Of a stretch of DNA of 64,000 nucleotides, positions 34,916 through 56,233 are shown one piece after another. The stretch spans positions 37,909,501 to 37,973,500 of the forward strand of contig NC_088927.1 in the NCBI RefSeq assembly GCF_038396675.1, written 5' to 3'. How positions within the stretch are numbered: position 1 is the first letter of the stretch; every line of letters starts with the position of its first letter. This DNA comes from Hydra vulgaris (Eukaryota; Cnidaria; Hydrozoa; Anthoathecata; Hydridae). The translations under genes were made by a program, and so were the position numbers. The notes under the pieces were generated by a model. The model did not search any database, was not told the origin of the DNA, and was given only the letters and a program-made list of their open reading frames with translations.

Positions 34916-36221
<1,306 letters not shown>

Positions 36222-36288
36222 AATGACTTACTATACACAAATTTTTATATTACTTTGTAAAAATAAAGGTAATTTAATTTTTGTTTAG

Positions 36289-36953
36289 ATGAACTTGCTT
36301 TAGAGAGGATCAGTCAGTTATATCCTTATTATATGAATTAATTTAGTATTTAGTCATTTACTATTAGTTTTCAAATACAGTTCTATATTATGCCTATGTA
36401 GATTGTTGTTAGTTGTATTTTTGTATACCTAATACTTATTTTACTTATTTTATTAAGTCGCTCTTTTTTTTATGTAGACAAATTAGAACAAACAATAAGT
36501 AAGTTTAGTTTAAATTGTTTTAGTTACTATATCATTTAAAAGTATTTGTATGCAGTGTTAGTATTCTTTGTTAGCTTTGAATAAACATTTTGATTTAAAA
36601 TTGGCATTTAGGTGAGTACGGCCAGCAGATATGTAAGTTTCATAGATTTCTATATTTTTTAACATATAACTAATTGATACATCATTACAAATATAAACTT
36701 CAAGTAAATGTTTTAATTTAAAATTGGCATTTTGGTGAATATGGCAAACAAATATGTAAGTTTTGTAGGCTTCAATATTTTAAAGTGCATGACTTGTTAA
36801 TACATCATTATAAAGATATTATAACTCGAAACAAGTGTATTTTAAAGTTGAAAAATATTCCATTCACATTCCAACAATTTTAATTTATTTTTTTTATCTT
36901 TAGCATACCTTACTTCGATAATTGGTGAGAGAATTTTTATATATATAGAATTG

Positions 36954-37039
<86 letters not shown>

Positions 37040-37102
37040 GGACGGAGACTTGTATTATTGCATTTAATTTATATTTAGTGTCACTGTCGTCTATTCCTGC
37101 TG
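36289..37102 (+). CDS. Micro-exon gene, 5' block (five candidate micro-exons)
   Basis: The candidate exons, each with AG before and GT after, are: 36289-36312 (24 nt, DELALERI), 36478-36498 (21 nt, completing N/D then KLEQTI), 36612-36632 (21 nt, SEYGQQI), 36904-36924 (21 nt, SYLTSII) and 37079-37102 (24 nt, VSLSSIPA). Every one starts with the last two bases and ends with the first base of a codon, so all are symmetric phase 1-1 and join without a shift. The introns are 113-271 bp. The last exon has the same Val-Ser-rich style as the downstream block beyond the LINE. The start codon and any signal peptide are not found. The first three are weaker because their peptides differ from the repeat. 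The function is unknown. Confidence 0.5.
36585..36820. repeat. Tandem duplication of about 123 bp containing a micro-exon
   Basis: The segment starting at about 36590 (ttaaaattggcattta) recurs from about 36713 (ttaaaattggcatttt). The first copy has an ag acceptor before gtgagtacggccagcagata. In the second copy the same place reads tg (36733-36734), so its exon (36735-36755) has lost the acceptor. Confidence 0.75.
36958..37034. repeat. (TA)n microsatellite
   Basis: It fills most of the intron between the micro-exons at 36904 and 37079. Confidence 0.9.
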
Positions 37103-37836
37103 GTAAGGTATATATATATATTCAATGCTAAAAAGTGTTCCTAATTTTACATGTCTGAAAAACGAAACGAACTAAACTACCTCAGCAAACAGTTCAGGAG
37201 TCTGGAGTCATAGCATGCCATGACATGAGCAATCAGCTAACAGGTGACAGCACACAGGCAGAATTTTTTTTTTTCTTTTTCTTTTATTATAAAATAATAA
37301 GTATTTACAATTTTTTAATAACATTAACTAAGGTTTTATGTTTTTACAATATATGGTTTTACAATTTTTCACAAGTATATACATTTTCTGTTTTGTAAAT
37401 TATATTACATAATTTTTTTATTTTTAATTTTTAATTTTTTTGTGTTTTTTGATTTTATATTTTTTTGTGTTTTTTGGTTTTATATTTTTTTGTTTTTTAT
37501 TTTTTTGCAGTTGTGCGGAAAGAAATCGAGAGTTTAGAATAAGTTAAAAAAAGAAGAAATTTTAAAATAGGGTAAGGAAAGGTTCATAAGGTAAAATGAA
37601 TGATTTATATGCAAAAAAATTAAAAAAGGAATTACAGGACTTTTAAATAAACATTACGTTACGAACACTATAGATACAAAAAAAATTTATGTGTTAAAAT
37701 AATATTTCATAAGATAAGGACTGGCAGTGATTTGCTTATTTTGTATAATAATAAGTTTGTTGTATAACATAAATAAAATTGCAAGAGGGAAGGAAGTCTT
37801 TACTAAACATACAACGAGCCGTTGTTTTAATTCAGC

Positions 37837-38316
37837 TCATATGTTTAGTTTCAGACTTCCATTCTCTACTTGACAGAAAACATTTTTAATAGAAAAATAC
37901 TCACAGAAAATGTCCGTTGTATTTCTACGGACATGATAATTATATTTTAAGGTAATAATATTCCTGATGTTCCTGATTCTTACCCTGATCACTGCCATTG
38001 GGTCAATTTTTTTGTTGCTGAACATGTGGTGGCATCTACTGTTCCATATTGCACTCATGATGATTTGAGTGAGTGTCAACAGCAGCTGCGAATTGGGGTT
38101 TTTCACCGATAAATTCGCTGTTTCAATCGAGAAAATCGAATTTATCGGAGAAAAGTTGTTTCGGGATGTCAAGGAGTTATATACATGTTTAAAATACTCC
38201 CAAATTTCAACAGAAGGAGGACAGTAGACAAAGATATGCATGTTGTCCTCGATTTTACCACAAGTTTTGCATTTGTTATTTTTGACGATCTGTTGCCTTG
38301 TGCTTTTGGCTAGCAA
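37837..38316 (-). CDS. LINE ORF2 C-terminal segment (frameshifted), zinc-finger-like
   Basis: This is the continuation of ORF2 in another frame. The upstream frame ends ...LLRLASQKHKATDRQK, and the sequence over the same stretch reads AKSTRQQIVKNNKCKTCGKI here. It carries CKTCGKIEDNMHIFVYCP, a CCHC pattern typical of the zf-RVT region after LINE RTs, then NSRCHHMFSNKKIDPMAVIR. One frameshift within 38276-38316 separates it from ORF2. If this is real and not a sequencing error, the element is disabled by a single lesion. Confidence 0.8.
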   Translation of the reverse strand: MLAKSTRQQIVKNNKCKTCGKIEDNMHIFVYCPPSVEIWEYFKHVYNSLTSRNNFSPINSIFSIETANLSVKNPNSQLLLTLTQIIMSAIWNSRCHHMFSNKKIDPMAVIRVRIRNIRNIITLKYNYHVRRNTTDIFCEYFSIKNVFCQVENGSLKLNI

Positions 38317-41300
38317 GGCGCAGAAGGTAACTGTTGTGTAAAAAACGAAAGAGGATGTTTTGAGTCGGTCCGCATGCGTGGGAGGTGAAGTTCTTTTTCC
38401 AAATTTGGGTCCACGGTATCGTTGTTTTTGTTGAACTGTTCCAAAAAAGTTCTGCTGGCACGACTGTCTTTTTGTTTTTTGCCACTTCTAAGTAAAAACT
38501 TTTTGTTGTTTTTAGGGGGATGTTAAAAAGGAACCCGTTTTTGCATAATATTTCGATTGTTGTTTTGTAGTACTGAGACGTTTTGTTGTCCCAGTGTTTT
38601 GGAAAATTGTTCTGCTTTAAAAAGTTCCAGCTTTGGTTTTGGTTCGTAAATTTTATAAGTGAACTCGCCAACCAATACTTTGAAAAGTAGTAATAATCGT
38701 GAGCTTTGTCCTCTTCACATTCTTTCAGTCGAAAGAGTGTTTTGAGGCGAAGTGCAAGACTTTGCTTCTTCGGTGATAAAATTCCGAGAACCCCGCTTTT
38801 GACGGGTAAGAAAAGTGTTTCTCTCTTGACCGGATTGTAATTGGTCTTTTGAAACAGATTTTCGAAAATGGCTCTGTGCAGACGTTCTATTACCCATTCG
38901 GAAACGGGCAGCACGTTTGCCAGAAACCACACTTTTGACATTGCTAACGTATTTATCAATATAGTCTTTCCCCTAAGTGACAAAGTACGTAGTCCCAGAA
39001 ACTTGAGTTTTTTCTCTATTTTGTTTAGAGTTACTAACCAGTTAAAATTGATAGTATCGCTCAGTCTGGTGTAAAAAGTAACACCTAAAATTTTGAAACC
39101 GGTGTTGTTGTTCCACTCTATGCCGTCCAATTCCGGGTACATTTTGGGATCAAAACCCCCAAGGGCGAGACCCTTGGTTTTTGAGGCATTGATCACTGAA
39201 CCACTTGCTTTTTCAAACAGTTTTACTTTTTCGAAGAAACAACGGACTGATTTTATGTCCCTGGCAAAAAAGTTCGAATCGTCTGCATACTGCTGTATTT
39301 TGAGGGGTTTAGGTGTACGTGGTAGCGGGAAACCCTCTATTCTGCTATCTGCTCTGATCACCAAAGCGAGAGCTTTGGCGACGAAAACATACAGCAAGAG
39401 GGAGAGGGGATCGCCCTGTCTAACTCCCCCTTCCGTAGGAAAGGAGGCTGACAGGAAAGCGCAATTCAGAACAGATGCCAAAACTTCTGAATATAAGGTG
39501 TTAACAAAAGATACAAAATTTTCTCCGAGATTGAATTTTCGGAGAATCTGAAGCAGAAACGCACGATCGACTTCATCAAACGCCTTTTCTTGGTCAATTG
39601 ACAAAATGAAACTAGGTAAATTTTTAAATTGCGCGTAATCTATAAGATCACGGACTAAATGTAAATTTGAGAATATTGTTCTACCTGGGATTCCGCAAGT
39701 TTGATTTGGTTCTACAATTTCCCCAATTACTTTTGCAAGTCTTTGGGCCAGCGCTTTTGTGATTATTTTGTAATCAGCGCCGATTAGGGATATAGGCTTC
39801 CAGTTTTTGCATTCGGTAAGATCTCCTTGTTTGGGGATCAGTGAAATAATAGATTTTTTCATAGAGTGGCTGGTGTTTTTTTCTACGAAAAATATTTCGT
39901 AAGCAAGTTCTTCAAAGTCTTTTTCTAAAATGTGCCAAAAGGTTTTATAAAATTCAGCTGGAAGTCCGTCATAGCCCGGAGATTTTCCGTTTTCAAATTT
40001 AAAAAGGGCTTCTTTTAGTTCGGCGACGGTTAGGCGGGTGTTTAAAAATTGATTTTCATCATCACTTAAACGTTTAGTGATGTGTGACAAGACATAATAT
40101 TGGCTGTCTTTGCATAAACTAGTTTTGGTGTAAATGTTTTTGTAATATGAAACTAGGGAGTTTAGTATTTCACCAGGTTCACTCGTCAATGTGCCGTCAT
40201 TCTTGCGAATTTCGGTAATTGACTTGTTCTGCTGTTGAACTTTTTCCAAATTATACAAAAATTTTGAAGGTTTTTCTCTTTCTTCGATTAGTTTTTGTTT
40301 CGTGCGAATAAACGCTCCGGGAAACTGGAGCAAGAAAAGAGCATCGCGTTTTTCTTTGATGCTATCTAAATTCGGGATTGCGTTTTGTCGCTCCCGTTGG
40401 ATTTCATTTTCAATCCTTTTGATATTTTTTTTGTTTTTCGCACTTTCCTGTATCGATATGTGTTGTAATTCAGCCCTAACAAAAAGTTTGCAGTCGTCTA
40501 ACCATTTTAAAATTGACGTATAGGACCGTTTTTTAGTTTGCCAATCTTGAATTAAGAGCTCATTTTTTTGCCTATGTACCCCTATTTCCAAAAAAGAGCA
40601 GTTTAATTTCCAATATCCTGGTCCTCTCCTGGTTTTACTAAAATTGACAGTTGTTGACACAAACTCGTGGTCGGAAAAAGGGTTGGTGAGAATTTTGTTG
40701 TATGTTGTTTTTTTGGCGACTTTTTCAGGGCAGTAGATTCTGTCGAGTCTACATTTAACCGTCTGATTGCGCCATGTGAATTCTCTTTTGTTGGGAAATT
40801 TATAACGATAAACATCTACGAGGTTATACTTACCTTGGAGGACCCCGAGTTTAGCAATGCCGTAGGTGTGATATTTAGCGTTGTTTGTGCCCTCTGTGTC
40901 AAGAGGCAGGCTTTCGACCATGTTGAAATCCCCGGCCATCAGGACGGGTAGTCCTGTGTCCTGCAAGAAATCTCCAAGGTCGCTAAAAAAGAGGCGCTTT
41001 TCTCTCGGCACATTAGGTGCGTAAATGTTCAGCACCTGCATTTCGTGTTCGTCAATTTTTATCATGACATTTAATATTCTTCCGTTGTTGTCCCTTTTTA
41101 GTTCGTGTAAAGAAACATTGGATTTAGCGAGTATCGCCACCCCACAACAGTTTTGACTCGGACCAGAGTTCCAAATAGACTCGCAAGTCCATTCGTCACT
41201 CCACTGTTTAACAGTGGACGGTCCGGATTTTGTTTCCTGAAGGAGGATAAGATCGAAGGTAGACTTTTTGAGAAACCCAAAAAAATTACCGCGTTTGTCT

Positions 41301-41347
41301 TGGTCGTTTAGACCGTTTATGTTGCACGTTAAAATATTATTAGCCAT
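38276..41347 (-). CDS. LINE ORF2 protein: endonuclease and reverse transcriptase
   Basis: This is a 1023-residue frame starting MANNILTCNINGLNDQDKRG. The APE-type endonuclease occupies about 1-235 (LLQETKS, AGDFNMVES, RLDRIYCP, SDHEFVSTTV). A linker helix region follows. RT spans about 470-740: ISLIPKQGDLTECKNWKPIS, LIGADYKIITKALAQRLAKV, QTCGIPGRTIFSNLHLVRDL, motif A SFILSIDQEKAFDEVDR, motif B GGVRQGDPLSLLLYVF and motif C IQQYADDSNFFAR (YADD intact). The thumb and C-terminal region follow. The wording (NWKPISLIGADYKI, IxGRTIxxNLxLVRD) fits the Tx1/L1 group. The frame ends at 38276 by a frame change and continues in the frame at 37837-38316. Apart from that, all visible catalytic motifs are present. 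Confidence 0.85.
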   Translation of the reverse strand: MANNILTCNINGLNDQDKRGNFFGFLKKSTFDLILLQETKSGPSTVKQWSDEWTCESIWNSGPSQNCCGVAILAKSNVSLHELKRDNNGRILNVMIKIDEHEMQVLNIYAPNVPREKRLFFSDLGDFLQDTGLPVLMAGDFNMVESLPLDTEGTNNAKYHTYGIAKLGVLQGKYNLVDVYRYKFPNKREFTWRNQTVKCRLDRIYCPEKVAKKTTYNKILTNPFSDHEFVSTTVNFSKTRRGPGYWKLNCSFLEIGVHRQKNELLIQDWQTKKRSYTSILKWLDDCKLFVRAELQHISIQESAKNKKNIKRIENEIQRERQNAIPNLDSIKEKRDALFLLQFPGAFIRTKQKLIEEREKPSKFLYNLEKVQQQNKSITEIRKNDGTLTSEPGEILNSLVSYYKNIYTKTSLCKDSQYYVLSHITKRLSDDENQFLNTRLTVAELKEALFKFENGKSPGYDGLPAEFYKTFWHILEKDFEELAYEIFFVEKNTSHSMKKSIISLIPKQGDLTECKNWKPISLIGADYKIITKALAQRLAKVIGEIVEPNQTCGIPGRTIFSNLHLVRDLIDYAQFKNLPSFILSIDQEKAFDEVDRAFLLQILRKFNLGENFVSFVNTLYSEVLASVLNCAFLSASFPTEGGVRQGDPLSLLLYVFVAKALALVIRADSRIEGFPLPRTPKPLKIQQYADDSNFFARDIKSVRCFFEKVKLFEKASGSVINASKTKGLALGGFDPKMYPELDGIEWNNNTGFKILGVTFYTRLSDTINFNWLVTLNKIEKKLKFLGLRTLSLRGKTILINTLAMSKVWFLANVLPVSEWVIERLHRAIFENLFQKTNYNPVKRETLFLPVKSGVLGILSPKKQSLALRLKTLFRLKECEEDKAHDYYYFSKYWLASSLIKFTNQNQSWNFLKQNNFPKHWDNKTSQYYKTTIEILCKNGFLFNIPLKTTKSFYLEVAKNKKTVVPAELFWNSSTKTTIPWTQIWKKNFTSHACGPTQNILFRFLHNSYLLRLASQKHKATDRQK

Positions 41348-41810
41348 GATGGGGAGGATCAGGTTTCTTAATTTGAAAACTCGTGTACCTTAAACATAAA
41401 TATAATAATTTTACAACCTGACATAAAAATCACAAACATATAAACCTTAACCTTATATCACGAGTTTTCGTTTGAACTGACGTAATACGAACAGAAGGAC
41501 GCACTGGACCATAACATTCCACAAAAAAGCGCGAACTACAACAATACGAATTACGACAGCTTAAGCGCTTATTCAAAAACGTGACACGCATAATTAATGA
41601 GTAGAAAAATAGAACGTAAAAAAAGAATTTTTGTAGAAAGAAAAAGAAATAAAAGTTTAGAACAAAAAATTCGAAATAAAATTCTGATTTGAGAACAAAG
41701 CTAAAAAAGTAAGATGAAACAAAAAAAAAAGAGAGAGAGAAATAAACTTACGATTTCTTTTCCGCACCAATTTGGCTGTCAAGTTCTTCATCGATTATTA
41801 AAGAGTCCGT

Positions 41811-42740
41811 TTAGATTTCGAAACACATTTCCACACTTTCTTCTGACAAAAGAACTTCTTCCAACGACATGCCTTCCTTTATATCGTTCGTGTTTATTAA
41901 TTTTTTGGGGGTTTCGCATTCCGACTGCCCCAAACGTTTTCTGGTCGGTTGGATGGGTTTTGCTTTCGGTGTTTTTGATGGATGTTCTTTTTCACTAAGA
42001 CATTTTTTCCCGGAATCAACCTTAGCATTTACCTCAACACAGGCGTTTTGAACGTCGTTTTCCACATTCACACTGTTGACTTGTGTTTCTGTGGGTTGTG
42101 TGGAAGATACGGATGGAATGGTTGTGTTTTTTAAATTTGGTGGGTTAGGTTCGGGCTGGCCAGAGTGTTTGTAGCGTAGGTTGAGTCCATCGACGTTTTG
42201 ATAGCGGGGTAGAGGGTTTAAGCATGGGTTTTTAATAATAATTATCACATTACCTGTATATATATCCTCCCCGTGAGCCTTGCACTTTTGTAAGTAGAAG
42301 GAGTCAAACTCACCTCGTCCTGCAGTTAGGTGTTTACCAAGCAGGATGATGGCGCTCTGACATCCATTCCTAAGTGTACCAATGGGAATGTTTTGAACCA
42401 AAACGTGATATTTTCGCACATATTTTTGTTGGAACTTTAACACGCATCCTTTCATTTCAATTTCTGCCTCGAGGTAGGTTGCGACAGATGAGTTGTTAAC
42501 AACGGCGAACTCAAAATGCTTGTTGGTGTAATGCCTTGTCACACCCCAAACATTGCCAAGTAACTTTTTCTCGGCTAAACTTGAAAGAAAATCATTGACG
42601 CTCACGTTCAAATCACCGTATCGACAAATAAGAACATTTGAATTGTCAATCTCTGTCTTAGCATTGAAAATACCAAGATTAGTTCTCAATTGAACAGCAG
42701 TGTTACCAGACGATAAAACACCAGCATAACTTTTAGCCAT
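41811..42740 (-). CDS. LINE ORF1 protein (RNA-binding)
   Basis: This is an uninterrupted 309-residue frame, the first ORF of the LINE. It begins MAKSYAGVLSSGNTAVQLR. Residues about 32-115 (VLICRYGDLNVSVNDFLSSL ... FEFAVVNNSSVATYLEAEIE) and about 110-150 (KYHVLVQNIPIGT) look like two ferredoxin/RRM-type alpha-beta folds. The C-terminal third is Pro/Asn/Thr-rich and charged (about 200-290), ending in an acidic tail EEVLLSEESVEM. No CCHC knuckle is visible, although many L1/Tx1 ORF1 proteins have one. The role, chaperoning the element's RNA, is inferred from the family. The frame is complete, which suggests recent activity. Confidence 0.75.
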   Translation of the reverse strand: MAKSYAGVLSSGNTAVQLRTNLGIFNAKTEIDNSNVLICRYGDLNVSVNDFLSSLAEKKLLGNVWGVTRHYTNKHFEFAVVNNSSVATYLEAEIEMKGCVLKFQQKYVRKYHVLVQNIPIGTLRNGCQSAIILLGKHLTAGRGEFDSFYLQKCKAHGEDIYTGNVIIIIKNPCLNPLPRYQNVDGLNLRYKHSGQPEPNPPNLKNTTIPSVSSTQPTETQVNSVNVENDVQNACVEVNAKVDSGKKCLSEKEHPSKTPKAKPIQPTRKRLGQSECETPKKLINTNDIKEGMSLEEVLLSEESVEMCFEI

Positions 42741-43020
42741 GAATACAACTCAATAAAAAACAAATTACACTCAATAAAATTCGCGACGAAAAAATCATCA
42801 AACGATAATTTAACGGTAAAAACCACAAGGAAGACTAAACGTCTTTTATGACTTAACTTTTTTAATTCAATTATTTTTTGACTTATTTGGTTGCTCTCAG
42901 GCAGAATTTCGTTGACAAGTGCCGTTTTCCAGCGGACAAACAAGTGCAACTTTTTTGATTTGTTTCATTTTCTTAAGTCTGGTCCGTGTCAACGTCACGG
43001 AAGTTTTTTAATAATTAAAG

Positions 43021-43168
43021 GAAGTATCCAGAAGTTTCCAGAAGCATGCAGAAGTTTCCAGAAGAAGCATCTGGAAGCATCCAGAAATATCCAGAAACAT
43101 TCAGAAGCTTCCAGAAGCATCTAGAATCTTCCAGAACAGGTTCACACAGTTTCATTTTACTATATAAG
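43021..43168 (+). promoter_or_regulatory. Heat-shock-element-like array and TATA box before the Tc1 transposase
   Basis: 43021-43137 is built of GAA/TTC pentamers in a 10-bp register (GAA at 43021, 43031, 43041, 43051 and again at 43084, 43094, 43104, 43114, 43124, 43134). It includes two TTCCAGAA palindromes (43109-43116 and 43129-43136), the nTTCnnGAAn arrangement bound by HSF. A TATA box (tatataag, 43161-43168) follows 24 bp later. A start site about 30 bp downstream would give a 5' leader of about 240 bp, rich in CAAG/ATCAA words, before the ATG at 43435. Confidence 0.7.
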
Positions 43169-43434
43169 AGACATGTAAATCGATATGTAATTCAGTCACT
43201 ATATGCAAGTCAATCAGTCAGTATTATCAAGACAGTTTATCGAAGTGAGTTTTATCAAAGTGTTTTATCGAAGAACATCAATACAAGAAGTGAAATACAA
43301 CAAGTGTTTCATTACATCAATGCAGTCCACATCCAACCAAGACGTTGTGTTCCACAGAGCATTATTGTATCATCACAAGGTAAATGTAACACGGTAAGCC
43401 TTGAGAAGCGTGATTATTTATTTTTATTATTTTT

Positions 43435-44448
43435 ATGACTTCAAGTGCAAAAATGGCTCTCGACAGTCTTGGATTGGAACTACGAAAGAAAATTATTGGC
43501 AATTACGTAAGTGGAATGTCACAAAAAAGTGTTTGTGATAAATATCGCATGAAAAAATGGACCGTATCAAGACTATGTTCCAAATATCGTTCTACGGGGA
43601 AGTTGGCAGCAGATAACAAAGGTGGAAGACAGCGTTCCACCACTTCTAGAGAGGATTCTATGATCGTCAGATCCGTCAAGAAGGATCCCTGGATATCATC
43701 AGTCGAGATACAAAAGCAATTAGAGCTGCCTGTATCGGATCGAACAATCAGACAACGTGCAAAGAAACCGCTGATTTCACTAAAAAAACAGAAGAAAAGA
43801 CTCCTGTTTTCTACATCTCATATTGACTGGAATGTGCAGAAATGGCGAACTGTCCTGTTCAGTGATGAATCGAAGTTCAACATCATTGGGAGCGATGGCA
43901 TTTGGCGTGTACGTCGACCGGCCGGAAAACGCCTCAATTTAAGTTACTGCCATAAGACCGTGAAGCATGGTCTTATGGCAGTAACTGGTATATTTTAGGC
44001 AATGCAATGGTCTGGGGGTATTTTTCTGCTAACGGTCTAGGTCCAATACATCGAAACGATGGAATAATGGACCGTTTCATGTATAAAAATATCCTGAAAG
44101 ATGTTGTTACCTAATGCTGAATGGAATATGCCAATAAAATGGGTTTTTCAGCAAGACAACGATCCGAAACACACTGCAAAAGTAGTCAAGTAGTGGTTTC
44201 AAGACAACCACCTATCGGTGATGGATTGGCCGCCTCAATCTCCGGATCTCAACCCTATCGAGAACCTGTGGGAGATCGTCAACCGCAGAATTAATTGTGA
44301 AGGTGTTCGTAATAAGGATCAACTGTTTGAACAAATCCAAAAGGCCTGGGCAGCGATTCCACAAAGTTTCATTGATCACCTGATCGAATCTATGCCTCGA
44401 AGATGCAAGGCTGTGATCGACAACAAAGGATTCGCCACGAAATATTGA
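43435..44448 (+). pseudogene. Tc1-like transposase, broken by an inverted insertion and frameshifts
   Basis: The frame starts MTSSAKMALDSLGLELRKKI. It has a paired-type HTH (about 15-60: GNYVSGMSQKSVCDKYRMKK, WTVSRLCSKYRSTGKL), a basic hinge GGRQRSTTSRED, a second HTH (about 85-120) and the first catalytic Asp in VLFSDESKFNIIGSDG. After KHG (about 43968) an inverted copy of the preceding sequence adds foreign residues and a stop at about 43998. Afterwards the Tc1 sequence resumes (GNAMVWGYFSANGLGPIHRN), passes further frame changes, shows FQQDNDPKHTAK (second Asp, about 44146-44190), and ends with DWPPQSPDLNPIENLWEIVN (third residue Glu) in the last frame 44218-44448. All three DDE residues survive, but the protein cannot be made from this copy. 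Confidence 0.85.
43942..43986. repeat. 18-bp-arm perfect hairpin inside the transposase
   Basis: The arms 43942-43959 and 43969-43986 are exact reverse complements (loop gtgaagcat). The right arm is the foreign insertion that breaks the reading frame. Confidence 0.9.
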
Positions 44449-44792
44449 TAGCGAAATACAGCTTGGTCAACATTTTGTCGAGTTACACTTGTTTTGTCCA
44501 GAAGGAAATCAACTTTTTTTAATACTATTGAATAATTTATTAATTTTCGTGTGCAAATAATGAACTTTGTGATGAATAAAACTTGAAGAACTTTGTCTCT
44601 AAACAGTTACATAGTTATTTCTCTAAATTGAAAAAATGCAGCACTTTTATATAAAGAAACTAAATTAGCATTATTTGGTTGCACTCGTTTTGTCCGATAC
44701 TGTATATTGTTAATTACAAATAATTTTAAGTATGGTTTCAATTATTATATAATTGCACAGTTATGTTGGGTATTGCATTTTCTATTTTTTAG

Positions 44793-45320
44793 TATCAACT
44801 TCATCGCTTATAATGGGTAAGGTTTTTATATTTTTATTTTCATATATGATTTTAATTTCTAAATTATTTTAAGGTTTTGCTATATTATTTAATTTTTTCA
44901 TATAACATTTTTTTATCATATAAGTCTATGCTATAGTAATTTATATTTTTATTTTTTAGCGCCATCATCTAAACAAGTTGGTATGGTATAATCTAAACCT
45001 TTCAACATGATTGTTATTACAAAATAAATACAAGATTTTATTTTTTATTTTAGTGCCACTTGCATCTGTTCCAGTTGGTAATGTCATATATTTTCATTAA
45101 GAATTTATAGATCTTAAATAACAAATATTTTCCAGTATTGACAAATAATTTACATATATAATTGCAAGATAATGTAATGTATCTTTATTTTTTAGTTTTA
45201 TCTTCTTCTGTTAAATACTGGTAAGGTTTACATATCTTTACTTTTTAACAACCAAATAATTTTAAGACGATGCTGTATTTTATGTTTATTTTTTAGTGCC
45301 ATCGTCATCTGAACGAATTG
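44793..45320 (+). CDS. Micro-exon gene, middle block
   Basis: The exons are: 44793-44816 (24 nt, VSTSSLIM), 44960-44980 (21 nt, APSSKQV), 45054-45077 (24 nt, VPLASVPV), 45196-45220 (25 nt, VLSSSVKY-like, see below) and 45297-45320 (24 nt, VPSSSERI). Each is preceded by a T-rich tract and AG and followed by GTAA/GTAT. The exons are phase 1-1, so each adds a cassette of 7-8 residues of the form V-P-S-S-S-x-x-x. The introns are only 73-143 bp. The 45196-45220 exon is 25 nt by its visible splice sites and would shift the frame if included, so it is either skipped or decayed. Exons of this length with strict symmetry are typical of micro-exon genes. I know no homologue. Confidence 0.65.
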
Positions 45321-45411
45321 GTAAGGTGCATAAATTTTTCAAAATGATTGTAATTGGAAAATTACTACAAGAATTTAATTTTTGCTTATTATGCTTATTT
45401 CTTTATTTTAG

Positions 45412-46180
45412 TGCAAATTTCATCTGTTCCTGTTGGTAATGACATATATTTTCTCTCTTTGAAAATTGATTTAAGTATTTTATTATTATTATTATTATTA
45501 TTGTTATTATTATTATTATTATTATTATGCCTTTTTTTATTAATACGTTGCTACTTGTAAGGCTATATATATCAACTTTGCTACATGAGTTTAAATAAAA
45601 AATATTTGCAATTTTTGTTTTTGTATTATGCTTTTGTTTTTAGTGCCACCTCTGCCTACTCAAACTGGTAAGACAATATTTATCAACTTTGCATTAAGAT
45701 TTAAATAAAAAACATATTATATTATATGATTTCTTTGTTTAAATTTTTTATAGTATCATCATCATCTGCTTTAACTGGTTAAGTTTGTATAATTAAAGAT
45801 AGCAAACTGATTTAAAACTATAATATTTTTTTTATTTTTACCCAGTGTTGTCATTTATCTATTAAATTATCTATGTTTATAATCATTTTGTTAACTTTAC
45901 TTTTAATCTAATTTGCATAACCTAATTGAGATATTACTTATTTTATTGTTTTTATATTGTCGTTATAGAACCAACTTACGAAGATTACATAAAATATAGG
46001 TCTCGCTACCCAGGACCACTAACCAACCCATCATTTTTATGTTGGTTGCAGAATAATGGGGAGGACAAGCCATCTTTTAAATGGTCTCGTCCTCCATACC
46101 TGGGTGGTGGGATCTATCAGCAAAGACAAGGTGGCAGAAGAGGTCCGGGTGGAATAGCAAATGTTTACGTTCAATGCTAG
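45412..46180 (+). CDS. Micro-exon gene, 3' block and terminal exon (array copy 1)
   Basis: The micro-exons are 45412-45435 (VQISSVPV), 45644-45667 (VPPLPTQT) and 45754-45777 (VSSSSALT, donor gttaag), all 24 nt and phase 1-1. The terminal exon is 45969-46180. It starts in the same phase (g plus aa gives Glu) and encodes 70 residues: EPTYEDYIKYRSRYPGPLTN, then PSFLCWLQNNGEDKPSFKWS, RPPYLGGGIYQQRQGGRRGP and GGIANVYVQC, then a stop. It is Tyr/Pro-rich at first, Gly/Arg-rich later, basic, with two Cys. The GC content of this exon stands out against its surroundings. An AATAAA lies at 46233-46238. The role is unknown. A secreted or structural repeat protein is possible, but no signal peptide has been found. 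Confidence 0.65.
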
Positions 46181-46232
46181 GTCCACCCGGATTTTTTTTG
46201 TTTTTACGTTTTTTTGTTAATACATAAAGTTA

Positions 46233-46238
46233 AATAAA
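46233..46238 (+). terminator. Poly(A) signal of the micro-exon gene, copy 1
   Basis: AATAAA lies 53 bp after the stop codon. It is repeated at the same place in the other three array copies. Confidence 0.6.
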
Positions 46239-47430
46239 ATTTGTTTTTATTTCGATGCTAATTTATATATGAAATTTAACTATTAAGTTGTTAACTTTAG
46301 CTTTAGTGTTTAAAAACATTAATTTCTGGGATTAAGTTACGATGTTTCTTTATCCTTAATGGAGGAAACATGTTTTTTTTTCTTCTACCCTTTAATAAAA
46401 TAATATCGTTTAGGCAGTATGGTAGGATGGTGTTGCGTAGCACATTTTTTAGAATTTTTCATTAACTTAGAAGTTTTTTTAAAAGTAGAATAGTTGAACT
46501 TTTTTAAAGAGTATTTTTTTATTATATTGACGAAAGTTAAAGTGTTATTTATTGATATCAAAAACTGTGTTGTACTTCTTGTGCTTAGTAAATGTTGAAG
46601 ATATTATCTTTTTTTTTTCTATCCTATTCTTTTTTTTTAAGTTTATACGTTTTCTATGCACATGCCAAATTTCAAGAATTTATTTTAACTTTAAATTTTG
46701 TTTTTCCGACTTCTGTTTGGGGGAGGAGGGGGGGGGATGACTGAAGGATATTAAATATTCGTATTTATAAGCCAATAATAATTATTATTAAAAAATTTAA
46801 TAATTATTCTATACAATGATTTTGTGATAGAAGTACTAATATTACATTTATAAAGTATCAATGTAAAAATAACATTTATTATATATTAAATCAATAGTAC
46901 ATGTTTTTTGCTCAGTCCAATCATATTATTTCATTTTTAAAAAGCTTTGTATCATATAATAATATAATATATTGCTTTTTTATGTATTTAGAATATATCA
47001 TATATTAGTAATATACTGATATTTGTCTAAAAATATATAGACATAATATATTTATAGTATACTAAATTTAATATACTATTTATAGTATATTATATTTATA
47101 GTATATTATATATTTAATATATACTGTATTATAATATATATTAAATATATACTATAATACAATATATATTTAATACATACTATATTAATAATAATTATGA
47201 ATGATATGATTTCGATACAGCAATGACAATTATTATATGAAAAAGTTCCAGCTAGTTGCTGACATCGTAGTTGATGTTTTCATTGAGTTGATGTTTCCAG
47301 TGATGTTTTCATTTTTATTGATGTTTCCAGTGAGTTGATGTTTTTCTAATGTGAATATGTTGCCATTATGTTTTGATAATTGGACTTTTGTTGCATTTTA
47401 TTATCTTACTACATGATTTTACTATTTTTT

Positions 47431-47600
<170 letters not shown>

Positions 47601-47893
47601 TGCAACAAGTAGTGGAACTTGCAAAAAAAATTACAGCGAGTAGTGGAACTTGCAAAGATATGTACATCGAGTTGTGGAACTTGCAAAAATATTAAGCGAG
47701 TAGTGGAACTTGCAATTTTTTTGATAGACGGGTCTAGCTTACATTCACGTCGTGTCTAACGGGTGATGCGGAAGTTATCGGACAAATCCTAATTTCATTA
47801 TTTGAGCATAATAATTAGTTTTTGTGGTTTTATGCGTAGGCATAAACGTTCTATAAAATATAAACTTTATTATTTGAAACACAATTATTTAAA

Positions 47894-48647
47894 ATGAGGT
47901 TAAATGCAGCTGAACGAGAATCTTTTCGAAAGCGACTAAAAATGTTTTTTGTAAATAAACCTAATATAAAAATAAAAAAAATCGTAAATCATTTTGAAAA
48001 GGAAGGATTTGCTCGAAATACAATATATGATAACCTAAAAAGACTTGAAACTGTTCAATCGTTTTCTGATAGAAAGCACCCTGGTCGACCGACATCCTGG
48101 ACTAGAGAAAAGAAAGCCGAATTAACGAGACTTGTCAACAATCGAAAAGGGGTCAGTCAGAGAAAAATAGGTATTAAATTCGGTGTAAATCAATCGACAA
48201 TTGGTCGTCAGTTAAAAAAAATGAATGTTAAATGTAGAAAACGTGAAAAGACTCCAAAATACACTATAGAACAACAAATAAAGGCAAAGAAAAGAAGCAG
48301 GAAACTAGTTAACTAACTCTATAACACAAAATCGCTTCTAGTCATCGATGACGAAAAATACTTTTGTTTTGCAGGGGACAACATGCCTGGAAATTCTGGA
48401 TACTACACAAACAACAAAAAGACATGCCCAGAAAGTGTTCGTTTTATAGGAAAAGAGAAATTTCCAAAAAAATTATTAATGTGGATAGCCATATCTGACC
48501 GTGGTATGTCCGAGCCATTGTTTCGCACTTCCAAGGCTGTAGCGATCAATTCATCAATCTATATTAATGAATGTTTAGGAAAACGACTTCTTCCATTTAT
48601 TCACAAGTATCATGGAGACTTTAACTATTTATTTTGGCCAGATTTAG
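47894..48647 (+). pseudogene. mariner-like transposase, in-frame stop and 3' truncated (unit 1)
   Basis: The frame MRLNAAERESFRKRLKMFF contains two HTH segments (about 20-60, and 95-130 with VSQRKIGIKFGVNQSTIGRQ) separated by a GRP hinge (HPGRPTSW). A TAA at 48314-48316 interrupts it. The same frame then continues LYNTKSLLVIDDEKYFCFAG (first Asp) and KKLLMWIAISDRGMSEPLF, and ends FWPDLA (second Asp) exactly at the array junction. The last catalytic residue and C-terminus are absent, replaced by intron sequence of the micro-exon gene. The stop and truncation are shared by all three copies, so they predate the amplification. Same family as the remnant at 14350-15240. Confidence 0.85.
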
Positions 48648-48780
48648 CAAGAATTTAATTTTTGCTTATTATGCTTATTTCTTTATTTTAGTGCAAATTT
48701 CATCTGTTCCTGCTGGTAATGACATATATTTTCTCTCTTTGAAAATTGATTTAAGTATTTTATTATTATTATTATTATTA

Positions 48781-48811
<31 letters not shown>

Positions 48812-49251
48812 GCCTTTTTTTATTAATACGTTGCTACTTGTAAGGCTATATATATCAACTTTGCTACATGAGTTTAAATAAAAAATATTTGCAATTTTTG
48901 TTTTTGTATTATGCTTTTGTTTTTAGTGCCACCTCTGCCTACTCAAACTGGTAAGACAATATTTATCAACTTTGCATTAAGATTTAAATAAAAAACATAT
49001 TATATTATATGATTTCTTTGTTTAAATTTTTTTTAGTATCATCATCATCTGCTTTAACTGGTTAAGTTTGTATAATTAAAGATAGCAAACTGATTTAAAA
49101 CTATAATATTTTTTTTATTTTTACCCAGTGTTGTCATTTATCTATTAAATTATCTATGTTTATAATCATTTTGTTAACTTTACTTTTAATCTAATTTGCA
49201 TAACCTAATTGAGATATTACTTATTTTATTGTTTTTATATTGTCGTTATAG

Positions 49252-49463
49252 AACCAACTTACGAAGATTACATAAAATATAGGTCTCGCTACCCAGGACC
49301 ACTAACCAACCCATCATTTTTATGTTGGTTGCAGAATAATGGGGAGGACAAGCCATCTTTTAAATGGTCTCGTCCTCCATACCTGGGTGGTGGGATCTAT
49401 CAGCAAAGACAAGGTGGCAGAAGAGGTCCGGGTGGAATAGCAAATGTTTACGTTCAATGCTAG
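49252..49463 (+). CDS. Micro-exon gene terminal exon, copy 2
   Basis: Identical in its 70-residue translation to 45969-46180, with the same phase-1 acceptor and poly(A) signal. It could serve as an alternative 3' end or be spliced past. Without a promoter of its own it depends on transcription from upstream. Confidence 0.6.
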
Positions 49464-50713
49464 GTCCACCCGGATTTTTTTTGTTTTTACGTTTTTTTGT
49501 TAATACATAAAGTTAAATAAAATTTGTTTTTATTTCGATGCTAATTTATATATGAAATTTAACTATTAAGTTGTTAACTTTAGCTTTAGTGTTTAAAAAC
49601 ATTAATTTCTGGGATTAAGTTACGATGTTTCTTTATCCTTAATGGAGGAAACATGTTTTTTTTTCTTCTACCCTTTAATAAAATAATATCGTTTAGGCAG
49701 TATGGTAGGATGGTGTTGCGTAGCACATTTTTTAGAATTTTTCATTAACTTAGAAGTTTTTTTAAAAGTAGAATAGTTGAACTTTTTTAAAGAGTATTTT
49801 TTTATTATATTGACGAAAGTTAAAGTGTTATTTATTGATATCAAAAACTGTGTTGTACTTCTTGTGCTTAGTAAATGTTGAAGATATTATCTTTTTTTTT
49901 TCTATCCTATTCTTTTTTTTTAAGTTTATACGTTTTCTATGCACATGCCAAATTTCAAGAATTTATTTTAACTTTAAATTTTGTTTTTCCGACTTCTGTT
50001 TGGGGGAGGAGGGGGGGGGATGACTGAAGGATATTAAATATTCGTATTTATAAGCCAATAATAATTATTATTAAAAAATTTAATAATTATTCTATACAAT
50101 GATTTTGTGATAGAAGTACTAATATTACATTTATAAAGTATCAATGTAAAAATAACATTTATTATATATTAAATCAATAGTACATGTTTTTTGCTCAGTC
50201 CAATCATATTATTTCATTTTTAAAAAGCTTTGTATCATATAATAATATAATATATTGCTTTTTTATGTATTTAGAATATATCATATATTAGTAATATACT
50301 GATATTTGTCTAAAAATATATAGACATAATATATTTATAGTATACTAAATTTAATATACTATTTATAGTATATTATATTTATAGTATATTATATATTTAA
50401 TATATACTGTATTATAATATATATTAAATATATACTATAATACAATATATATTTAATACATACTATATTAATAATAATTATGAATGATATGATTTCGATA
50501 CAGCAATGACAATTATTATATGAAAAAGTTCCAGCTAGTTGCTGACATCGTAGTTGATGTTTTCATTGAGTTGATGTTTCCAGTGATGTTTTCATTTTTA
50601 TTGATGTTTCCAGTGAGTTGATGTTTTTCTAATGTGAATATGTTGCCATTATGTTTTGATAATTGGACTTTTGTTGCATTTTATTATCTTACTACATGAT
50701 TTTACTATTTTTT

Positions 50714-50891
<178 letters not shown>

Positions 50892-51184
50892 TGCAACAAG
50901 TAGTGGAACTTGCAAAAAAAATTACAGCGAGTAGTGGAACTTGCAAAGATATGTACATCGAGTTGTGGAACTTGCAAAAATATTAAGCGAGTAGTGGAAC
51001 TTGCAATTTTTTTGATAGACGGGTCTAGCTTACATTCACGTCGTGTCTAACGGGTGATGCGGAAGTTATCGGACAAATCCTAATTTCATTATTTGAGCAT
51101 AATAATTAGTTTTTGTGGTTTTATGCGTAGGCATAAACGTTCTATAAAATATAAACTTTATTATTTGAAACACAATTATTTAAA

Positions 51185-51938
51185 ATGAGGTTAAATGCAG
51201 CTGAACGAGAATCTTTTCGAAAGCGACTAAAAATGTTTTTTGTAAATAAACCTAATATAAAAATAAAAAAAATCGTAAATCATTTTGAAAAGGAAGGATT
51301 TGCTCGAAATACAATATATGATAACCTAAAAAGACTTGAAACTGTTCAATCGTTTTCTGATAGAAAGCACCCTGGTCGACCGACATCCTGGACTAGAGAA
51401 AAGAAAGCCGAATTAACGAGACTTGTCAACAATCGAAAAGGGGTCAGTCAGAGAAAAATAGGTATTAAATTCGGTGTAAATCAATCGACAATTGGTCGTC
51501 AGTTAAAAAAAATGAATGTTAAATGTAGAAAACGTGAAAAGACTCCAAAATACACTATAGAACAACAAATAAAGGCAAAGAAAAGAAGCAGGAAACTAGT
51601 TAACTAACTCTATAACACAAAATCGCTTCTAGTCATCGATGACGAAAAATACTTTTGTTTTGCAGGGGACAACATGCCTGGAAATTCTGGATACTACACA
51701 AACAACAAAAAGACATGCCCAGAAAGTGTTCGTTTTATAGGAAAAGAGAAATTTCCAAAAAAATTATTAATGTGGATAGCCATATCTGACCGTGGTATGT
51801 CCGAGCCATTGTTTCGCACTTCCAAGGCTGTAGCGATCAATTCATCAATCTATATTAATGAATGTTTAGGAAAACGACTTCTTCCATTTATTCACAAGTA
51901 TCATGGAGACTTTAACTATTTATTTTGGCCAGATTTAG
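51185..51938 (+). pseudogene. mariner-like transposase, truncated (unit 2)
   Basis: Same sequence as 47894-48647, including the in-frame stop (51605-51607) and the cut after FWPDLA. Confidence 0.85.
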
Positions 51939-52071
51939 CAAGAATTTAATTTTTGCTTATTATGCTTATTTCTTTATTTTAGTGCAAATTTCATCTGTTC
52001 CTGCTGGTAATGACATATATTTTCTCTCTTTGAAAATTGATTTAAGTATTTTATTATTATTATTATTATTA

Positions 52072-52102
<31 letters not shown>

Positions 52103-52542
52103 GCCTTTTTTTATTAATACGTTGCTACTTGTAAGGCTATATATATCAACTTTGCTACATGAGTTTAAATAAAAAATATTTGCAATTTTTGTTTTTGTAT
52201 TATGCTTTTGTTTTTAGTGCCACCTCTGCCTACTCAAACTGGTAAGACAATATTTATCAACTTTGCATTAAGATTTAAATAAAAAACATATTATATTATA
52301 TGATTTCTTTGTTTAAATTTTTTTTAGTATCATCATCATCTGCTTTAACTGGTTAAGTTTGTATAATTAAAGATAGCAAACTGATTTAAAACTATAATAT
52401 TTTTTTTATTTTTACCCAGTGTTGTCATTTATCTATTAAATTATCTATGTTTATAATCATTTTGTTAACTTTACTTTTAATCTAATTTGCATAACCTAAT
52501 TGAGATATTACTTATTTTATTGTTTTTATATTGTCGTTATAG

Positions 52543-52754
52543 AACCAACTTACGAAGATTACATAAAATATAGGTCTCGCTACCCAGGACCACTAACCAA
52601 CCCATCATTTTTATGTTGGTTGCAGAATAATGGGGAGGACAAGCCATCTTTTAAATGGTCTCGTCCTCCATACCTGGGTGGTGGGATCTATCAGCAAAGA
52701 CAAGGTGGCAGAAGAGGTCCGGGTGGAATAGCAAATGTTTACGTTCAATGCTAG
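52543..52754 (+). CDS. Micro-exon gene terminal exon, copy 3
   Basis: Same 70-residue translation and acceptor as copies 1 and 2. Confidence 0.6.
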
Positions 52755-54004
52755 GTCCACCCGGATTTTTTTTGTTTTTACGTTTTTTTGTTAATACATA
52801 AAGTTAAATAAAATTTGTTTTTATTTCGATGCTAATTTATATATGAAATTTAACTATTAAGTTGTTAACTTTAGCTTTAGTGTTTAAAAACATTAATTTC
52901 TGGGATTAAGTTACGATGTTTCTTTATCCTTAATGGAGGAAACATGTTTTTTTTTCTTCTACCCTTTAATAAAATAATATCGTTTAGGCAGTATGGTAGG
53001 ATGGTGTTGCGTAGCACATTTTTTAGAATTTTTCATTAACTTAGAAGTTTTTTTAAAAGTAGAATAGTTGAACTTTTTTAAAGAGTATTTTTTTATTATA
53101 TTGACGAAAGTTAAAGTGTTATTTATTGATATCAAAAACTGTGTTGTACTTCTTGTGCTTAGTAAATGTTGAAGATATTATCTTTTTTTTTTCTATCCTA
53201 TTCTTTTTTTTTAAGTTTATACGTTTTCTATGCACATGCCAAATTTCAAGAATTTATTTTAACTTTAAATTTTGTTTTTCCGACTTCTGTTTGGGGGAGG
53301 AGGGGGGGGGATGACTGAAGGATATTAAATATTCGTATTTATAAGCCAATAATAATTATTATTAAAAAATTTAATAATTATTCTATACAATGATTTTGTG
53401 ATAGAAGTACTAATATTACATTTATAAAGTATCAATGTAAAAATAACATTTATTATATATTAAATCAATAGTACATGTTTTTTGCTCAGTCCAATCATAT
53501 TATTTCATTTTTAAAAAGCTTTGTATCATATAATAATATAATATATTGCTTTTTTATGTATTTAGAATATATCATATATTAGTAATATACTGATATTTGT
53601 CTAAAAATATATAGACATAATATATTTATAGTATACTAAATTTAATATACTATTTATAGTATATTATATTTATAGTATATTATATATTTAATATATACTG
53701 TATTATAATATATATTAAATATATACTATAATACAATATATATTTAATACATACTATATTAATAATAATTATGAATGATATGATTTCGATACAGCAATGA
53801 CAATTATTATATGAAAAAGTTCCAGCTAGTTGCTGACATCGTAGTTGATGTTTTCATTGAGTTGATGTTTCCAGTGATGTTTTCATTTTTATTGATGTTT
53901 CCAGTGAGTTGATGTTTTTCTAATGTGAATATGTTGCCATTATGTTTTGATAATTGGACTTTTGTTGCATTTTATTATCTTACTACATGATTTTACTATT
54001 TTTT

Positions 54005-54174
<170 letters not shown>

Positions 54175-54467
54175 TGCAACAAGTAGTGGAACTTGCAAAA
54201 AAAATTACAGCGAGTAGTGGAACTTGCAAAGATATGTACATCGAGTTGTGGAACTTGCAAAAATATTAAGCGAGTAGTGGAACTTGCAATTTTTTTGATA
54301 GACGGGTCTAGCTTACATTCACGTCGTGTCTAACGGGTGATGCGGAAGTTATCGGACAAATCCTAATTTCATTATTTGAGCATAATAATTAGTTTTTGTG
54401 GTTTTATGCGTAGGCATAAACGTTCTATAAAATATAAACTTTATTATTTGAAACACAATTATTTAAA

Positions 54468-55221
54468 ATGAGGTTAAATGCAGCTGAACGAGAATCTTTT
54501 CGAAAGCGACTAAAAATGTTTTTTGTAAATAAACCTAATATAAAAATAAAAAAAATCGTAAATCATTTTGAAAAGGAAGGATTTGCTCGAAATACAATAT
54601 ATGATAACCTAAAAAGACTTGAAACTGTTCAATCGTTTTCTGATAGAAAGCACCCTGGTCGACCGACATCCTGGACTAGAGAAAAGAAAGCCGAATTAAC
54701 GAGACTTGTCAACAATCGAAAAGGGGTCAGTCAGAGAAAAATAGGTATTAAATTCGGTGTAAATCAATCGACAATTGGTCGTCAGTTAAAAAAAATGAAT
54801 GTTAAATGTAGAAAACGTGAAAAGACTCCAAAATACACTATAGAACAACAAATAAAGGCAAAGAAAAGAAGCAGGAAACTAGTTAACTAACTCTATAACA
54901 CAAAATCGCTTCTAGTCATCGATGACGAAAAATACTTTTGTTTTGCAGGGGACAACATGCCTGGAAATTCTGGATACTACACAAACAACAAAAAGACATG
55001 CCCAGAAAGTGTTCGTTTTATAGGAAAAGAGAAATTTCCAAAAAAATTATTAATGTGGATAGCCATATCTGACCGTGGTATGTCCGAGCCATTGTTTCGC
55101 ACTTCCAAGGCTGTAGCGATCAATTCATCAATCTATATTAATGAATGTTTAGGAAAACGACTTCTTCCATTTATTCACAAGTATCATGGAGACTTTAACT
55201 ATTTATTTTGGCCAGATTTAG
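54468..55221 (+). pseudogene. mariner-like transposase, truncated (unit 3)
   Basis: Same as in units 1 and 2, with the stop at 54888-54890 and the cut after FWPDLA. Confidence 0.85.
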
Positions 55222-55354
55222 CAAGAATTTAATTTTTGCTTATTATGCTTATTTCTTTATTTTAGTGCAAATTTCATCTGTTCCTGCTGGTAATGACATA
55301 TATTTTCTCTCTTTGAAAATTGATTTAAGTATTTTATTATTATTATTATTATTA

Positions 55355-55385
<31 letters not shown>

Positions 55386-56233
55386 GCCTTTTTTTATTAA
55401 TACGTTGCTACTTGTAAGGCTATATATATCAACTTTGCTACATGAGTTTAAATAAAAAATATTTGCAATTTTTGTTTTTGTATTATGCTTTTGTTTTTAG
55501 TGCCACCTCTGCCTACTCAAACTGGTAAGACAATATTTATCAACTTTGCATTAAGATTTAAATAAAAAACATATTATATTATATGATTTCTTTGTTTAAA
55601 TTTTTTTTAGTATCATCATCATCTGCTTTAACTGGTTAAGTTTGTATAATTAAAGATAGCAAACTGATTTAAAACTATAATATTTTTTTTATTTTTACCC
55701 AGTGTTGTCATTTATCTATTAAATTATCTATGTTTATAATCATTTTGTTAACTTTACTTTTAATCTAATTTGCATAACCTAATTGAGATATTACTTATTT
55801 TATTGTTTTTATATTGTCGTTATAGAACCAACTTACGAAGATTACATAAAATATAGGTCTCGCTACCCAGGACCACTAACCAACCCATCATTTTTATGTT
55901 GGTTGCAGAATAATGGGGAGGACAAGCCATCTTTTAAATGGTCTCGTCCTCCATACCTGGGTGGTGGGATCTATCAGCAAAGACAAGGTGGCAGAAGAGG
56001 TCCGGGTGGAATAGCAAATGTTTACGTTCAATGCTAGGTCCACCCGGATTTTTTTTGTTTTTACGTTTTTTTGTTAATACATAAAGTTAAATAAAATTTG
56101 TTTTTATTTCGATGCTAATTTATATATGAAATTTAACTATTAAGTTGTTAACTTTAGCTTTAGTGTTTAAAAACATTAATTTCTGGGATTAAGTTACGAT
56201 GTTTCTTTATCCTTAATGGAGGAAACATGTTTT
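55222..56233 (+). repeat. Tandem array, partial unit 4
   Basis: It contains the micro-exons 55266-55289, 55501-55524 and 55611-55634, and the terminal exon, then stops matching after ggaggaaacatgtttt (about 56233). The rest of the unit, including the transposase, is replaced by other sequence in which aaacatgttttcga is repeated. The 3' part of the transposase, expected at the right edge of a simple tandem duplication, is missing. Confidence 0.9.
55826..56037 (+). CDS. Micro-exon gene terminal exon, copy 4
   Basis: Same 70-residue translation as the other copies. It is the last exon of the locus on this side. Confidence 0.6.

Follow-up and report, generated by a model that had tools for sequence, protein, structure and literature searches.

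A probable micro-exon gene locus in Hydra vulgaris built from 21- and 24-nucleotide cassette exons

Micro-exon genes described elsewhere

Genes made almost wholly of micro-exons have been reported from schistosomes and aphids, and in these two accounts are tied to secreted effector-type proteins (PMC10526429, PMC9168663). As defined for Schistosoma, a micro-exon gene (MEG) carries between 10 and 20 tiny exons of 6-81 bp, most of them divisible by three in length; the MEG proteins of Schistosoma mansoni are small, the longest having 189 residues, and automatic annotation handles the genes badly (PMC10526429). The locus described here lies in a 64,000-nucleotide stretch of Hydra vulgaris DNA (the window), in which a neighbouring host exon of 157 residues is 100% identical to H. 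vulgaris. It resembles a MEG in gathering many very short exons in one gene, 12 of them intact and of 21 or 24 nt and one of 25 nt, but differs in that nearly all are of just these two lengths and repeat related cassettes. Introns of MEGs span 100 to almost 5000 bp; those of the Hydra gene measure 73 to 271 nt, except for one of 7690 nt that is filled with transposons. Alternative splicing of the micro-exons is a further MEG trait, as is an N-terminal signal peptide; at the Hydra locus, where the 5' end was not located, no hydrophobic start above the set threshold occurred among upstream candidates combining an ATG with a donor. No sequence relationship to schistosome MEG proteins was found among 159 and 1947 candidates, in which the sole significant homologue is from Hydra.

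Aphid bicycle genes have many small exons, nearly all of which begin at codon position 2 (PMC9168663). The same start is seen in all 12 micro-exons and in the terminal exon of the Hydra locus. Bicycle proteins are marked by paired Cys-Tyr-Cys motifs, whereas the 162-residue Hydra reading contains no C-Y-C, no aphid homologue was found among the same two candidate sets and, unlike for bicycle genes, an effector role is unsupported. Within the Cnidaria, the sea anemone 8 (SA8) genes also possess what their authors term microexons, but the available text gives only 3-5 of them per gene, places the genes in a cysteine-rich toxin-type family and describes no equal-length cassette array (PMC10210398). 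No earlier description of the Hydra gene was found in the micro-exon and cnidarian literature or under the gene identifier, in a search outside which most subscription papers lie; other microexon papers listed there dealt with SRRM4 and with neuronal, cancer, mouse and plant microexons. In fibrillar collagen genes, 54-bp exons correspond to a whole number of structural repeats, the Gly-X-Y triplets. Exon length may likewise track a structural repeat in Hydra, although the repeats there would be heptads and Ser/Val/Pro octapeptides and the 54-bp collagen exons are not micro-exons. We consider it likely that the window holds a genuine H. vulgaris micro-exon gene locus with at least one paralogue, and that its protein is put together from cassettes on a one-exon-one-unit basis.

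The exon array and its paralogue

The initial annotation proposed 12 in-frame units, each consisting of an AG, 21 or 24 nt and a GT, between 36.3 and 46.2 kb. Every unit proved exact in its flanking AG, its length and its GT (Table 1). One phase is open throughout, and the 12 exons joined to the terminal exon, which stops at a TAG (46178-46180), give a stop-free reading of 162 residues. The array extends further to the right than had been described: its last four exons recur three more times, down to 56.2 kb. Exons 5-12 do encode Ser/Val/Pro-rich hepta- or octapeptides, which exons 1-4 do not, and the motif V-P-S-S-S-x-x-x, of which eight variants had been counted, is loose as worded. The 25-nt cassette and the decayed duplicate of micro-exon 3, as well as the three extra 3' copies, had been missed. 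The presumed cnidarian source was right, as the full identity of the neighbouring host exon to H. vulgaris shows.

Table 1. Positions of exons, duplicates, mobile elements and tandem units of the array locus within the window
Feature	Position	Strand	Description
Micro-exon 1	36289..36312	+	24 nt, (D)ELALERI, donor GTCAGT; first residue presumes a preceding G
Micro-exon 2	36478..36498	+	21 nt, one heptad, NKLEQTI
Micro-exon 3	36612..36632	+	21 nt, one heptad, SEYGQQI; weak pyrimidine tract
Decayed duplicate of micro-exon 3	36735..36755	+	Equal length and frame, xEYGKQI; GTAAGT donor retained
Micro-exon 4	36904..36924	+	21 nt, one heptad, SYLTSII
Micro-exon 5	37079..37102	+	24 nt, VSLSSIPA; passes looser scan only
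7690-nt intron	37103..44792	+	Contains a LINE and a Tc1-like element
LINE in 7690-nt intron	ORFs 38276-41389, 41811-42749	-	
Tc1-like element in 7690-nt intron	ORF 43414-43998	+	
Micro-exon 6	44793..44816	+	24 nt, VSTSSLIM
Micro-exon 7	44960..44980	+	21 nt, APSSKQV; paralogue version APSSSKQV
Micro-exon 8	45054..45077	+	24 nt, VPLASVPV
Unlisted 25-nt cassette	45196..45220	+	VLSSSVKY-like; position of the paralogue's DLSSSVNT
Micro-exon 9	45297..45320	+	24 nt, VPSSSERI
Micro-exon 10	45412..45435	+	24 nt, VQISSVPV
Micro-exon 11	45644..45667	+	24 nt, VPPLPTQT
Micro-exon 12	45754..45777	+	24 nt, VSSSSALT; weak donor GTTAAG; passes looser scan only
Terminal exon with stop	45969..46180	+	Conserved core, then Gly/Arg-rich tail
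First tandem unit	45368..48647	+	Exons 10-12, terminal exon, 3' flank, broken transposase-like ORFs
Second tandem unit	48648..51938	+	Exons 48692, 48927, 49037, terminal 49252
Third tandem unit	51939..55221	+	Exons 51983, 52218, 52328, terminal 52543
Fourth tandem unit, partial	55222..56233	+	Exons 55266, 55501, 55611, terminal 55826

A single significant homologue was recovered, the uncharacterised 133-aa H. vulgaris protein LOC136092362 (P0001; E 5.6e-43), which matches the locus reading in 88 of 107 aligned columns (82%). In this protein the cassettes of exons 7-12 are joined to one another and to the terminal exon in the order of the locus. For these exons it supports the proposal of a micro-exon gene, which the chance statistics given below support as well. 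An 8-residue gap in the alignment coincides exactly with the 45054/45297 exon junction, the site of the 25-nt cassette, and P0001 carries its DLSSSVNT cassette in frame. The annotated first residue of P0001 aligns with the final Met of exon 6, and exons 1-5 receive no support from it. The core of the terminal module is common to both, whereas the Gly/Arg-rich tail is read in another frame in P0001. The two loci look like unlinked paralogues, because the H. vulgaris contig matched by the 157-residue host exon differs in length from that of P0001. Our family searches, which covered proteins some 89-283 residues long that have short words in common, returned one significant match among 159 candidates and, with a two-sequence profile, one among 1947, the profile adding no relative beyond P0001. 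Pfam gave only a below-cut-off match to BKRF4 for the 162-residue reading (E 0.18) and none for P0001, and a sequence search of the PDB returned no match. In a low-confidence AlphaFold2 model of P0001 (mean pLDDT 52.6, pTM 0.26, 27 of 133 residues at 70-90), two short helices, 61-70 and 78-87, are placed in the conserved core of the terminal module.

The 5' end was sought upstream of 36289 by scanning for an ATG followed after 10-400 nt by a scored donor in the right phase. From 20 kb on, 13 candidates were obtained, none of them convincing; no candidate in 1-36288 exceeded the hydropathy threshold, and a signal-peptide exon was not found there. The nearest candidate, 36223-36268, would leave a 20-nt intron.

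It is possible, though on the whole doubtful, that a functional micro-exon gene lies elsewhere (LOC136092362 or another) and that the locus in the window is a decaying copy of it, which has inherited the anatomy but no longer makes the protein. The copy may indeed be decaying in part, because its tail frame differs from that of the paralogue and the acceptor is gone from the duplicate of exon 3, TG standing in place of AG (the adjoining intron is duplicated too). If the 25-nt cassette were included, a stop would arise in the next exon; the large intron holds transposons, the upstream scan gave no start exon, and neither family search recovered an annotated protein of the array locus among the proteins covered. 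However, very small exons are often missed by annotation pipelines, the splice dinucleotides and open frame are kept in 12 of 12 exons, no difference is listed among the four terminal exons, and every decayed cassette can be skipped with the frame intact, as when omission of the 25-nt cassette leaves it open.

A secreted, fast-changing effector-type protein like those of schistosome MEGs or aphid bicycle genes seems unlikely. The exon architecture and frame-preserving design are alike and relatives are few, as the searches indicate, but no signal peptide emerged from the start-exon scan, and a possible coiled coil with a Gly/Arg-rich tail would suit an intracellular protein too. The likeness to variable secreted schistosome proteins that had been drawn from the array was not supported, no signal-peptide exon having been found upstream.

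Duplication and splice signals

Intron flanks within the array resemble each other, the best of 182 comparisons being 45644/45754 (z 10.0), 45054/45412 (z 8.0), 44960/45297 (z 7.4) and micro-exon 3 with its duplicate (z 5.3), and the pairs 45054/45644 (z 5.0) and 44793/45196 (z 3.8) being weak. When the array was compared with itself by BLAST, long matches of 57-64% appeared in the AT-rich introns and were given no weight. As judged from the flanks, the array appears to have grown, at least partly, by duplication of exons together with their introns.

At a larger scale, near-identical 3.28-kb units make up four copies of the 3' end. Copies 2-4 differ from one another only within a TA repeat, outside which copy 1 departs from them by two single bases and one triplet. 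Such close identity could reflect an error of assembly at a locus that truly has a single 3' end. We regard this as improbable, since the differences from copy 1 are common to copies 2-4, which fits a real and recent tandem duplication, and a new junction occurs at every unit start.

A strict scan combining pyrimidine tract, donor score and open phase was applied to the gene sequence (36000-37140 plus 44700-46200; 2.7 kb), with 2000 dinucleotide shuffles as control. Nine units of 21 or 24 nt were found, against a mean of 0.05 and a maximum of 2 in the shuffles, none of which reached the observed count, and none of the remaining 15 exon lengths divisible by three between 12 and 60 nt gave a unit. 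Across the whole plus strand the scan gave 15 units, the nine of the gene plus six in which exons 45412 and 45644 recur as tandem copies, and on the minus strand it gave none. Exons 36612 and 37079 failed it for their pyrimidine tract and 45754 for tract and donor. In a looser scan, the left block gave five sites (mean 0.2, maximum 3 in 2000 simulations) and the right block seven (mean 0.3, maximum 4 in 2000 simulations). Four of the five left-block sites are listed exons; 36612 fails and the unlisted 36524 passes. Outside the region, three sites lay on the plus and five on the minus strand, and a further site of the 3' flank recurs at 47728, 51019 and 54302, once in each of three units. Exon 36612 passes another scan with different settings, but its splice signals are the weakest of all the exons because it fails the looser cut too. 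That AT-rich DNA should have yielded T-tract-AG-N-GT patterns from which a reader picked those of equal length is very hard to credit, even though the DNA is AT-rich and looser settings do give sites elsewhere, including the unlisted one in the left block, as no shuffle in 2000 matched the count and the paralogue protein joins the exon 7-12 cassettes.

A proposed modular protein

The genuine micro-exon gene that we favour would encode a protein of three parts. In their best heptad register, exons 1-4 place hydrophobic residues at seven of nine a/d positions, the last seven of them consecutive (permutation p = 0.018, a modest value), which suggests a coiled-coil-like pattern with exactly one heptad in each of the 21-nt exons 2, 3 and 4. 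Since this pattern emerges when the left exons are joined, it lends them some support, but exon 36612, one of the four, has a weak acceptor. The first four exons could accordingly be read as a heptad coiled coil, the next eight, with the one whose frame is broken, as Ser/Val/Pro-rich spacer units of 7-8 residues, and the conventional terminal exon as a small C-terminal module.

Because every intact exon is symmetric and shares one phase, gain, loss or skipping of a cassette keeps the reading frame; for the 21-nt exons, at one heptad each, such changes would also leave the heptad register unchanged. The locus is presumably transcribed, and its cassettes may be skipped. Most likely, the short coiled coil would work by joining chains into an oligomer, the spacer behind it would be flexible and of variable length, and the C-terminal module would bind a partner. 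New here are the coiled-coil-like heptads, the 25-nt cassette, the duplication of exons with their introns and the four 3' units. More speculatively, the locus could belong to a cnidarian micro-exon family whose exon lengths are tied to protein structure, a heptad per 21-nt and a spacer octapeptide per 24-nt exon. Splicing and duplication would then adjust an oligomeric stalk by whole units at a time, with frame and coiled-coil register preserved, and several tandem 3' ends could be selected.

Our searches found the paralogue, whereas no annotated protein of the array locus came up, a hint that loci of this kind go unannotated. The match of one heptad per exon, if true, would show clearly how the structure of a gene can follow the geometry of its protein. 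Finally, a case in a free-living cnidarian, unrelated in sequence to those of schistosomes and aphids, would suggest that this gene architecture arose independently and is not necessarily related to a host.

Micro-exon pattern and a paralogue

All 12 of the plus-strand micro-exons proposed in the initial annotation proved exact, each with AG immediately 5', a length of 21 or 24 nt and GT immediately 3', and all start at codon position 2, in the common phase that had been claimed. Spliced in silico to the terminal exon, which carries the stop, they give a stop-free reading of 162 residues. The view that such a pattern is hard to get by chance also held: a strict scan of the 2.7 kb of gene sequence found 9 sites, against a mean of 0.05 and a maximum of 2 in 2000 dinucleotide shuffles; the minus strand had no site, and 15 further exon lengths divisible by three gave none either. 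Across the entire plus strand there were 15 strict sites: these 9, plus 6 that duplicate two of them in tandem. The strict cut-off excludes 36612, 37079 and 45754 from among the listed exons. Looser cut-offs gave seven sites in the right block, all of them listed exons (0.3 expected), and five in the left block (0.2 expected), of which four are listed and a fifth, at 36524, is not; exon 36612 fails here as well. Elsewhere they gave three plus-strand sites outside the region and five on the minus strand; one 3'-flank site is present in three of the tandem units.

Independent support for the pattern comes from P0001, the uncharacterised 133-residue product of H. vulgaris LOC136092362, which contains the cassettes (units of 7 or 8 residues, each encoded by one micro-exon) of exons 7-12 followed by the terminal exon, arranged as in the window. 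It was the one significant homologue among 159 candidates and is identical to the window reading in 88 of 107 aligned columns; a two-sequence profile of both yielded no further relatives among 1947 candidates, each search being limited to proteins with short words in common and a length of about 89-283 residues. P0001 is listed on a contig of 57,695,572 bases and the match to the window's ucpB exon (P0002) on one of 69,506,405; given these different lengths the two loci, if both come from one assembly, are unlinked paralogues. P0001 begins with the methionine that ends exon 6 and thus provides no test of exons 1-5. Its only long alignment gap, of 8 residues, falls exactly at the 45054/45297 junction, the site of the 25-nt exon. 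By its length this exon breaks the frame: its inclusion leads to a stop in the next exon, and its skipping keeps the reading open. An alternative frame of the terminal exon tail (45969-46240) ends in a peptide similar to the annotated tail of P0001, so the paralogues use different frames there. P0001, if single-exon, would be a processed copy, and even then would hint at spliced RNA.

Features of the micro-exon locus and its surroundings
Feature	Position	Strand	Remarks
ucpB exon (mitochondrial carrier)	3183-3683	minus	matches H. vulgaris ucpB (P0002) at 100% identity across 157 residues
Tandem duplication	31141-31416		perfect, 138 bp
Exons 1-5 (left block)	36289, 36478, 36612, 36904, 37079	plus	starts
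Duplicate of exon 36612	36735-36755	plus	length, frame and donor kept; TG replaces AG
LINE	38276-42749	minus	large intron; endonuclease and reverse transcriptase domains
Tc1/Tc3-type transposase ORF	43414-43998		same intron as LINE
Exons 6-12 (right block)	44793, 44960, 45054, 45297, 45412, 45644, 45754	plus	starts
25-nt exon	45196-45220	plus	at P0001 gap site; cassette similar to P0001's
Terminal exon	45969-46180	plus	carries stop
3.28-kb units	45368, 48648, 51939, 55222	plus	starts; fourth unit partial
hAT dimerisation domain ORF, near Mutator-like transposase ORF	60739-63162	minus (hAT), plus (Mutator-like)	

The next-best match to the ucpB exon, another H. vulgaris ucpB listed on a contig as long as that of P0002, has 64% identity, and the perfect match makes Hydra vulgaris the most likely source of the window. 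The LINE has an upstream ORF of 312 residues with no Pfam match.

Growth of the array

Flanking sequence, compared with splice signals left out, indicates that duplication of exons together with introns built the array, at least partly. The best of 182 comparisons were 45644/45754 (the most alike, z 10.0), 45054/45412 (z 8.0), 44960/45297 (z 7.4) and exon 36612 with its duplicate (z 5.3); likeness was weaker for 45054/45644 (z 5.0) and 44793/45196 (z 3.8). These values are compatible with copying of a three-exon module from 44793-45077 to 45196-45435.

At the 3' end, exons 10-12 and the terminal exon lie in a 3.28-kb unit present in four near-identical copies across 45368-56233. Outside a TA repeat, copy 1 differs from copies 2-4 by one triplet and two single bases, one of which turns a Val of exon 10 into Ala; copies 2-4 differ from each other only within that repeat. 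Either the unit was duplicated very recently or the copies are an artefact of assembly. Each of the three full units also holds a pair of broken ORFs that resemble transposases (of mariner type, as judged by eye), the second adjoining the unit junction; Pfam gave no match for the one piece tested.

Possible design and relation to other micro-exon genes

In a heptad reading of exons 1-4, 7 of the 9 a/d positions are hydrophobic, with an unbroken run over the final seven, and each of the three 21-nt exons is exactly one heptad. Because the permutation test is modest (p = 0.018) and the acceptor of exon 36612 is weak, this coiled-coil pattern is only suggestive. The likely design is a coil from exons 1-4 that would oligomerise chains, Ser/Val/Pro cassettes that may act as a flexible spacer and a small C-terminal module from the terminal exon, with two short helices in a low-confidence structure model. 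The main rival is that the window locus is a copy, now in decay, of a gene that works. Four features speak against a functional protein at this locus: the 25-nt cassette, the acceptor lost in the duplicate of exon 36612, a tail frame that differs from that of P0001 and a start exon that was not found.

No earlier description of the gene was found in the literature searched, nor any sequence relationship to schistosome micro-exon genes or aphid bicycle genes. The former share its many short exons (PMC10526429) and the latter its exon starts at codon position 2 (PMC9168663). Among cnidarians, the SA8 genes of sea anemones, said to consist of 3-5 microexons, are smaller and different in design (PMC10210398). 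In the Hydra gene proposed here, symmetric exons of a single phase mean that whole units can be gained, lost or skipped.
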